Positions 10,141-12,634 of a stretch of 32,711 bases of DNA are shown piece by piece. Origin of the DNA: Akkermansiaceae bacterium (GTDB lineage: Bacteria > Verrucomicrobiota > Verrucomicrobiia > Verrucomicrobiales > Akkermansiaceae); assembly GCA_947491475.1 (NCBI GenBank), contig CANLKN010000039.1, forward strand, positions 1 to 32,711, given 5' to 3'. Position 1 is the stretch's first letter. Every line of letters starts with the position of its first letter. Below the pieces are notes generated by a model. It was not told the DNA's origin. It worked only from the letters and a program-made list of their open reading frames with translations, and made no database searches. The translations under genes and the position numbers were made by a program.

Positions 10141-11292
10141 TTAAATTTCTTTGGTTCTCTCTATCAATTCCGCAAACTCCTCGAAGAAGTAGGAGGCGTC
10201 GTTCGGGCCGGGGGCGGCTTCGGGGTGGTATTGGACGCTGAAGACGGGGAGTTGCTTGTGGCGCATGCCTTCGACGGTGCCGTCGTTGAGGTTGATGTGG
10301 GTGACTTCCACTTCGGGCGGCAGCGAATCCGCATCCACGGCGAAACCATGGTTTTGCGAGGTGATGGAGACTTTGCCGCTGCGCAGGTCCTTGACCGGTT
10401 GGTTGCCGCCGCGGTGGCCGAACTTGAGCTTGAAGGTCTTGCCGCCGAAGGCGTGGCCTAACAACTGGTTGCCGAGGCAGATGCCGAAGATCGGTTTCTT
10501 GCCGATGAGTTGGCGGAGCTCCTCGTGGATGTAATCGAGCGCCGCCGGATCGCCGGGGCCGTTGGAGAGGAAAATTCCGTCCGGATTTTTCGCGAGCACC
10601 TCGGCGGCGCTGGTGGTGGAGGGGACCACTTCGACCTCGAAGCCCGCCTGGCGCAGGCGGCGCAGGATGTTGAACTTGATGCCGAAGTCATAGGCGACGA
10701 TGCGGTGGCGCACCGGCGGCAGTTCCTCGTAAGGGCCGGCGTGGCCGGTGCAAACATTCGGCAGGATCCATTCGCGCGATTCGTCCTGCCAATGGTAGGC
10801 GGCATCCGTGGAAACTTCCTTCACGTAGTCCATGCCTTCCATCGATGGCGAAGCTTTCGCGGCGGCGATGGCTTCATCGGCAGTAAGTTCGGTGCTGACA
10901 CAGGCACGCATGGCACCGAGCGAACGCAGGTGCTTGGTGAGTGCGCGGGTATCGATGCCCTCGATGCCGAGGATGCCGTGGCCCGCGAGGTATGCGGCGA
11001 GCGGTTGGCTGGAACGCCAGTTTGAAGGCACCTCGCAGAGCTCGCCGATGACAAAAGCGCGGATGTGCGGTTCACAGGACTCGGCGTCCTCGGGATTGAC
11101 TCCGTAATTTCCGATCTGCGGGTAGGTCATGGCCACAATCTGCCCGCGGTAGGACGGATCGGTGATGACCTCCTGGTAGCCGGTCATGGAGGTGTTGAAA
11201 CAAATTTCCCCGGTGGTGGTTCCGGTGGCTCCGAACGCGGTTCCTTCGAAACAGCGTCCGTCTTCAAGGGCGAGAATGGCGGTTATGGGCAC
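10141..11292 (-). CDS. carA: Carbamoyl-phosphate synthase small subunit
   Basis: The 383-residue protein starts [20 protein letters not shown] and has the CarA N-terminal domain ([20 protein letters not shown]). The class I glutamine amidotransferase domain follows, with nucleophile Cys in [17 protein letters not shown] and the His-Glu pair in [12 protein letters not shown]. It releases ammonia from glutamine for the CarB subunit, feeding arginine and pyrimidine synthesis. CarB is not in the window. I start at the GTG of V-P-I-T-A-I-L-A-L, as in other CarA proteins; a TTG 13 codons upstream would add residues with no family match. It is the first gene of the minus-strand run that continues into purA. 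Confidence 0.96.
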
Positions 11293-11339
11293 GGCGGGCG
11301 CGAAACTAGGCAGCCGCTCCGGGGGATGCAAGAGCGGGC

Positions 11340-11503
11340 TTACTCACGAGCCCGCGAATCGATCACAATCGTCACAGGACCGTCGTTCACGAGTGCGATT
11401 TTCATGTCACCGCCGAAGATACCCCGGGCGACGGGTTTGCCGGTTTCCCGCTGGATGGCGGCGCAGAATGCTTCGTAGAGTGGCTCGGAATGTTCCGGGT
11501 AGA
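11340..11503 (-). pseudogene. Second copy of the dtd 3' end
   Basis: The minus strand reads [52 protein letters not shown] and a stop. Aligned by eye with the last 52 residues of the intact dtd at 12182-12634 it differs at about seven positions. The DNA is clearly diverged as well, so this is not a fresh duplication. Similarity fades upstream of about 11500, where the intact gene has its SQFTL region. The fragment lies 47 bp before carA, where the end of a dtd-carA pair would be expected. The two copies are direct repeats flanking the nucleotidyltransferase unit. Confidence 0.88.
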
Positions 11504-11554
11504 GAATGCGCTCTGCTGCTTGCCGCGTCCGTGGCTGCGTGCTAGTGTTCCGCC

Positions 11555-11737
11555 ATGCCGGAAAATAACGGGGAAATGATCCGCAAGCGAGTTGGTGGCA
11601 GCATGCGCAACATTCCCATCATGAGGCGGGTGGAAAGCTTGCGCGAAAACGCCCGATTCCTCCGCAAACAAACCCGCTGGATGCCCCCTGCCGACGATGG
11701 AACCCTCATTCGAAAAACTGTTGGTGCACCTCGCTGA
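11555..11737 (+). CDS. Small basic protein upstream of a nucleotidyltransferase
   Basis: This 60-residue reading frame begins MPENNGEMIRKRVGGSMRNI and is strongly basic, with several Arg and Lys. It overlaps the start of the nucleotidyltransferase gene by 41 bp in another frame. I do not recognise a family. The pairing of a small gene with an overlapping DUF6036-like gene would fit a toxin-antitoxin or abortive-infection pair, but the overlap is larger than usual and the frame could be spurious. The unit is flanked by repeats of dtd, which suggests it was acquired. Confidence 0.4.
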   Translation: MPENNGEMIRKRVGGSMRNIPIMRRVESLRENARFLRKQTRWMPPADDGTLIRKTVGAPR

Positions 11738-12167
11738 CGGGGAGGTGGATTTCATCCTGGTGGGCGGCTTGGCGGTCACCTTGCAGGGATACGTCCGCTT
11801 CACTGAGGACGTGGACATCCTGCTATCCAATGAGCCCGCCAACATCCGTCGTTTCATGGATGTGATGGGGGTTTTTGGGGAAGGATTTGCAAGGGAGTTG
11901 ACGCCGGATGATTTCCTGGACGAGGAAGGCGCGGTCCGGATCATTGAGGAACTGGAGGAATGCCAACTCGACGTGTTCACGGTGATAGCCGGCCGCAAGT
12001 ATGCGGATGTCTTGGTGGATGCCGATCATTTTGATGTCCGCGGCCGGATCGTTCGCTACGCATCGAAGGCCTCGCTCATCGCTTGGAAAGAGCGCTCCGT
12101 CCGGGAAAAGGACCGTATCGACGCTGCCGCGCTGCGTCGCTTGTTAGAGAGCCAGTCGGGTGGTTGA
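11697..12167 (+). CDS. Nucleotidyltransferase-fold protein (DUF6036-like)
   Basis: The 156-residue protein has the minimal nucleotidyltransferase motif FILVGGLAVTLQG followed by RFTEDVDILLS. This is the GG...DxD pattern that binds nucleotide and metal. It is followed by an Asp/Glu-rich middle and a C-terminal YASKASLIAWKERSVREKDR helix typical of DUF6036 and AbiEii-like proteins. Related proteins are found in toxin-antitoxin and phage-defence loci, where some add nucleotides to tRNA or to protein. The gene is inserted against the direction of the surrounding operon and sits between two dtd 3' ends. Its stop is 15 bp from the dtd stop. Function as a toxin is a guess. Confidence 0.75.
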   Translation: MEPSFEKLLVHLADGEVDFILVGGLAVTLQGYVRFTEDVDILLSNEPANIRRFMDVMGVFGEGFARELTPDDFLDEEGAVRIIEELEECQLDVFTVIAGRKYADVLVDADHFDVRGRIVRYASKASLIAWKERSVREKDRIDAAALRRLLESQSGG

Positions 12168-12181
12168 TCAGAAAGACCGGA

Positions 12182-12634
12182 TCACTCGCGCGCCCGGCTG
12201 TCCATGACGATGGTCACCGGACCGTCGTTGATGAGGGAAACCTGCATGTCGCCGCCGAAGACGCCGCGGGCAACGGGTTTGCCGGTTTCCCGCTGGATGG
12301 CGGCGCAGAACGCTTCGTAGAGCGGTTCGGAATGTGCTGGGGCCGCCGCGCGGATGAACGACGGGCGGTTGCCCTTCTTGGTGGAGGCGTGCAGGGTGAA
12401 CTGGCTGACCACCATGACCTGGCCGCCGGTTTCGGCCACCGAGAGGTTCATTTTCCCCTCGGCATCGCCGAAAATCCGCATTCTGGCGATCTTGCCGGCG
12501 AGCCAATCGACATCCGAAGCGTCGTCGATTTCCTCCACGCCGAGCAGCACCAGCAAGCCGGGGCCGACGCGGGAAATCATTTCGCCGTCGATGGCCACCG
12601 AGGCTTCGGTCACTCGTTGGATCACCGCTCGCAT
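12182..12634 (-). CDS. dtd: D-aminoacyl-tRNA deacylase
   Basis: The 150-residue protein is a full-length Dtd: [18 protein letters not shown] at the start, then [20 protein letters not shown]. The catalytic SQFTLHAST motif is near residue 90 and [15 protein letters not shown] ends it, containing the Gly-cisPro pair that reads the chirality of the substrate. It removes D-amino acids (and glycine) wrongly attached to tRNA. It starts nine bases after the ROK gene stop, so the two are likely co-transcribed. Its 3' end is repeated at 11340-11503, beyond an inserted gene pair. Confidence 0.96.

Follow-up and report, generated by a model that had tools for sequence, protein, structure and literature searches.

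How does a pair of small genes that carries no recombinase come to lie between two copies of the end of a housekeeping gene? The question is raised by the dtd-carA junction of an Akkermansiaceae bacterium, within a window of 32,711 nucleotides (contig CANLKN010000039.1; the window is the whole stretch of DNA analysed). The gene dtd, which encodes D-aminoacyl-tRNA deacylase, is intact there (12182-12634, minus strand; Pfam Tyr_Deacylase, E 1.3e-57), and its last ~53 codons are repeated directly (11337-11499 and 12179-12341; 163 nt, 81% identical), as the preliminary description, which put the length at ~52 codons, had reported along with the two opposite-strand genes between the copies. The repeat is far beyond chance, because the upstream-versus-downstream match scores 101 at this locus and at most 19 in mismatched locus pairs (sets of 492 and 576 pairs). 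Delimited by the repeat alignment and by similarity to relatives, the second copy comprises codons ~98-150 and the stop (11340-11501, minus strand). This stranded copy lacks roughly the first 97 codons, is open in frame to its own stop (11340-11342), and is the sole second dtd match within the window genome. A spacer (11293-11339, minus strand) leads to carA (10141-11292, minus strand; start placed by homology). The ~680-bp insert (about 11500-12178, plus strand), whose borders are given by the repeat and by similar borders at two other sites, L184 and L182, is filled by two overlapping ORFs: S60, a small conserved ORF of 60 aa recognised by ORF calling and conservation (11555-11737, plus strand), and, downstream of and overlapping it, NT, a nucleotidyltransferase-like protein of 156 aa related by profile matches to DUF6036, DUF2204 and AbiEii (11697-12167, plus strand). 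The insert leaves no room for an integrase-sized gene, and neither S60 nor NT matched a recombinase family in Pfam, NCBIfam, PADLOC or PHROGs; the earlier observation that it holds no integrase is borne out.

S60 and NT form a conserved two-gene unit. Searching 288 genomes of the order for NT gave 30 further loci (E 3e-37 or better), spread over 29 genomes and four families; phylum-wide, 7 of 387 genomes, the window genome included, match at 1e-25. In 38 of 40 fetched loci, a set that includes weaker and truncated regions, NT is preceded by S60. DNA searches within the genus gave more units, and S60 is present in all seven that were fetched (from G320, G021, G016, G008, G333, G331 and G321). 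Within the window genome NT is single-copy if a weak match (E 0.04) is disregarded. The closest NT found is 81% identical and lies away from dtd in G321 (L413); that of G016 (L409) is 66% identical and likewise away from dtd. No NT relative was found in the viral contigs searched. Truncated or stop-bearing NT copies occur at L189, L191, L207 and L210-L216, which suggests that the gene is gained and lost rapidly.

We examined 46 dtd loci in relatives (34 + 12), of which 21 had both dtd and carA on the fetched stretch and 25 had no carA there. In 20 of the 21, dtd lies directly before carA, as the preliminary description had asked of relatives, with 48-118 nt from the end of the dtd match to carA and a single copy of the dtd 3' end. 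NT and S60 are absent from all 46 stretches, and the stranded copy in the window keeps the native distance to carA. The exception, G321, has 946 nt between dtd and carA, and within this gap (L232, 7320-7825) lies a gene pair with matches to Unstab_antitox and ParE_toxin; the suggestion that dtd is an insertion hotspot gains weak support from this ParE-type pair at the same junction in one relative. Among 73 genus genomes, 10 of them without a dtd match and many of them fragmented assemblies, an intact dtd together with a separate 3' fragment was found in G000 only. Two of the 20 unit-free loci have a damaged dtd: one, in G269 (L241, 4377-4682), has an internal deletion and matches residues 1-70 and 116-150 only, and the other, in G298 (L242, 4633-4830), has the last ~66 codons beside carA with the 5' part missing, no full dtd being found genome-wide in G298.

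The intact dtd is a mosaic, similar to that of G016 up to codon ~122 and then to those of G113 and G014. Over the first 291 nt G016 is nearest (0.89, with G014 and G321 at 0.85 and G113 at 0.75), whereas over the last 78 nt the order is G113 (0.94), G014 (0.92), G321 (0.86) and G016 (0.76); for the whole protein, identity is 88% to G321, 87% to G014 and 86% to G016. A maximum chi-square comparison of G016 with G113 places the break between gene nt 365 and 375 (P 0.0002), with 66 of 81 informative sites matching G016 over G113 to its left and 2 of 18 to its right. The breakpoint is also significant with the pairs G016/G014 (P 0.004), G329/G113 and G327/G113, and not significant with G016/G321 (P 0.07). 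From gene nt 366 the intact gene shares its longest identical run with G113, 54 nt; for scale, its longest with G016 is 52 nt. We read this distal end (12182-12262, minus strand) as probably foreign.

The stranded copy is also composite. Its last 78 nt are nearest to G016 (0.86), so the proposal that the ends of relatives should match this copy better than the intact gene holds for G016, and the reverse is true of G113 and G014. Its first 81 nt are closer to the intact copy (0.88) than to G016 (0.77), G014 (0.70) or G113 (0.67); thus, no one donor accounts for every piece. The break falls at gene nt 387-391 (P 0.0004), with 13 of 15 informative sites matching the intact copy on its left and 2 of 16 on its right. 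By similarity and this test, the part from 11340 to ~11404 (minus strand) is G016-like and read as native, and that from ~11405 to 11501 (minus strand) resembles the intact copy. The conserved stretch GVFGGDM (codons 124-130) is bordered by the two breaks, one from each copy. Of 60 control triples that did not include the window, 7 reached P of about 0.02 or less; in G014 (P 0.004) and G321 (P 0.001) the break among these was a similar switch, from G016-like to G113-like sequence, near nt 335. Since these two genomes have no NT unit beside dtd despite the switch within the gene, the distal ends of dtd may be exchanged independently of the unit, and the foreign end in the window may be unrelated to the insertion. 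As a separate observation, dtd of G014 (L113), G321 (L232) and G113 (L235) has a common distal type joined to more different 5' parts, which suggests repeated exchange of this end among them.

Which of the two ends is the native one? Of the six relatives compared, G016 is the closest on either flank: on one side in ROK (86%; detected in G016 and G113 alone of the six) and in the 5' part of dtd (89%), and on the other in the spacer with the first carA bases (91%), carA (89%) and purA (89%). Because G016 is nearest on both sides, the stranded, G016-like end is favoured as native; as judged from these similarities, this polarity is supported, not beyond doubt. The opposite polarity, in which a dtd with the G113-like end was resident and the unit arrived with a G016-like leftover from a relative of G016, would agree with the presence of that end type in G014, G321 and G113, all without the unit at dtd, and with the S60-NT unit that G016 carries elsewhere. 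However, it would not lead one to expect that the 5' part of dtd and ROK are also nearest to G016, or that carA-purA shows no sustained rise in identity toward the junction (in 125-nt blocks, the first is at 0.95 and the others, a short final one excepted, at 0.84-0.95), and we regard it as unlikely.

The two dtd copies differ mostly at synonymous sites (pS 0.49, pN 0.085), and in their common middle part seven changes are synonymous and one is nonsynonymous. The same is seen at L204, where the layout of the window recurs at the 3' end of an unrelated gene of 662 aa, with a 123-nt duplication whose copies give pS 0.47 and pN 0.087; relatives of that gene have only ~62% protein identity, too distant to name the native copy. 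Since the changes are mostly synonymous, the stranded copy would have diverged mostly within a working gene, whereas a stranded fragment is expected to gather nonsynonymous changes freely. This disfavours the simple tandem duplication that had been named earlier as the finding that would overturn the replacement model; we set it aside as unlikely. It also weighs on an origin by plain insertion, in which a long target duplication of the resident gene arose and its copies then diverged. Duplications do flank S60-NT at other sites, yet the excess of pS over pN both here and at L204, together with the mosaic similarity of the copies, makes that origin decidedly unlikely at dtd.

The other insertion sites show how far the arrangement at dtd can be generalised. 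Similar unit ends recur at four sites; relative to the NT start, they lie near -195 and +482. Flanking repeats, by contrast with these ends, vary in length, from 163 nt in the window and 123 nt at L204 to 14-27 bp at the gnd site (L182, an insertion common to L181) and none at L184; with such a range there is no fixed-length duplication. At gnd, nine relatives were fetched, of which five gave two-sided matches, all single-copy, overlapping by 14, 14, 17, 24 and 27 bp. At L184 the unit, from -195 to +482, replaces about 10 bp in G242, and the flanks lie 14 and 32 bp apart in other relatives, so no duplication accompanies it. Only 5 of 48 loci (the window, L204, L186, L198 and L182) exceed every null repeat score, and 43, the seven added genus loci included, have no repeat above the null; the apparent shared insertions L181/L182 and L202/L203 were counted separately. 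Two of the five were rejected as gene-end duplications: the L186 repeat consists of a short motif found more than once in its own upstream copy, and the L198 repeat is intergenic. The L186 unit is absent between the same flanking genes in 8 of 8 relatives examined, and for L191 a two-sided empty site was not found among the matches listed. Thus, the element with a replacement gene end envisaged in the preliminary description is supported at dtd, by the mosaic and the breakpoint, and is not supported as a rule, given L184, the 14-27 bp at gnd and the 43 loci without a repeat. At least one flanking gene presents its 3' end to the unit in 25 of 29 cases, and three units lie between two 5' ends, as judged by ORF calling (29 of 41 loci counted; 12 weak or truncated ones omitted; the neighbour script did not resolve the window, although dtd ends beside the unit). 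Such a share could be about what is expected anyway.

Prophages and islands such as e14/21 in icd replace the 3' end of a gene, and the window has the same outward geometry of a replaced end and a stranded native end. It differs in having no integrase and no fixed attachment site, and in its size of only ~680 bp. A remnant of such an element, which brought a replacement gene end and then lost its integrase, is highly improbable given the variable or absent duplication elsewhere, an insert with room for S60 and NT only, and the lack of a terminal signature: 28 units (13 of 41 loci omitted) had no terminal k-mer in common, and terminal inverted repeats were no better than shuffles in three of four units, that of L182 being marginal (3 of 200 shuffles reach its score). 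With neither a terminal motif nor a convincing inverted repeat at its ends, and no fixed-length target duplication, S60-NT does not behave as a transposon. At gnd and dtd, the sequence that flanks the unit in two copies is single in unit-free relatives, as after a long target duplication; at dtd, the mosaic and the synonymous divergence argue against the derivation of both copies from one resident sequence.

The unit, the two diverged copies that flank it, the mosaic structure of dtd and the lack of the unit at this junction in relatives are observed; on this basis we give an even chance to the following account: the recombinase-free S60-NT unit entered the dtd-carA junction together with a foreign dtd 3' end, by homology-anchored insertion, and stranded the native end. 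The ~680-bp unit would move between genomes of the order without a recombinase of its own. The incoming DNA would have carried the unit and, attached to it, the end of a related dtd; homologous recombination would have occurred at or beside the GVFGGDM stretch, and on its other side this DNA would have been linked to the resident sequence near codon 98, through illegitimate joining or as a consequence of a circular incoming molecule. The result would be a complete dtd that ends in the new sequence, and a native end left beside carA. If NT is a nucleotidyltransferase toxin and S60 its partner, retention would be favoured after such rare insertions. The breakpoint within dtd and the abrupt unit-dtd junction near 11500 fit a one-sided homologous join; no donor molecule for the insertion was seen.

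The main rival to this favoured account is the transfer of a pre-formed allele: the unit would have inserted at dtd elsewhere with a long target duplication, and the allele of dtd, unit and leftover would then have been transferred by a double crossover, one crossover in dtd and the other in the leftover. The position of both breaks at the edges of a single conserved stretch fits such an exchange, as do the recurrent unit ends, the 14-27 bp target duplications at gnd relative to empty sites, and the occurrence of the closest NT in G321, of the same genus, though away from its dtd. Yet no relative with the dtd-unit-leftover arrangement was found, the separate fragment being confined to G000 among the 73 genus genomes, and the mostly synonymous differences are unlike those expected of an old leftover. 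We consider the two steps possible but rather improbable.

The nearest parallels to homology-anchored insertion of S60-NT at dtd are long-duplication insertions of restriction-modification units and homology-facilitated illegitimate recombination. In excerpts of three papers, restriction-modification units are described as inserted with long, variable target duplications (PMC3031569, PMC3874152, PMC4978471, which in turn cite Nobusato 2000 and Furuta 2010). As far as those excerpts go, they too are small addiction-type gene units unlinked to a known mobile element, with variable flanking duplications on the order of 100 bp; here, however, the cargo is S60-NT, the dtd copies are diverged and mosaic, and one site has no duplication. 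Homology-facilitated illegitimate recombination has been proposed, in the part of the source available, for T6SS effector-immunity arrays and orphan Rhs 3' regions (PMC5361080), where, on that partial account, a homologous anchor on one side and a non-homologous join on the other likewise strand the old 3' part downstream. At dtd, in contrast, the same housekeeping gene is made whole again by the end that arrives, and the small unit carried along is separate from it. More broadly, S60-NT might spread on exchanged 3' ends of host genes, stranding the old end and being retained by toxin-antitoxin selection, a generalisation that we advance tentatively and hold to be doubtful. The window shows how a tiny addiction-like pair could settle beside housekeeping genes, leaving them unbroken, in the absence of its own recombinase, and the family offers many comparable insertion sites for separating long target duplication from homology-anchored insertion.

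NT resembles AbiEii-type nucleotidyltransferases, to which MenT is also related. The NT family profile matches PDB 8an4, labelled as of the AbiEii/AbiGii toxin family (E 2e-4), and Pfam matches to DUF6036, DUF2204 and AbiEii occur among its members, 9 of 14 matching AbiEii at E <= 0.01. The window NT itself stays below the Pfam cut-offs, with 21.9 bits against DUF6036 (cut-off 23.6), 16.1 bits against AbiEii (curated cut-off 22.5) and a similarly weak match to DUF2204. Across the 14 members, residues G23, G24 and D40 do not vary and D38 and D92 hardly do, and we take these residues to be the expected nucleotidyltransferase motif. S60 had no useful family match in Pfam, NCBIfam, PADLOC or PHROGs, and in these databases none to known antitoxin families, unlike the partners of AbiEii-type toxins; no description of an S60-NT unit was recognised among the papers listed by a literature search. 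S60-NT is probably a toxin-antitoxin-like pair. In 27 loci, the overlap of S60 and NT (11697-11726 in the window) has a mean DNA identity to the window of 0.86, compared to 0.68 in the next 90 nt, and this conservation is probably due to double coding.
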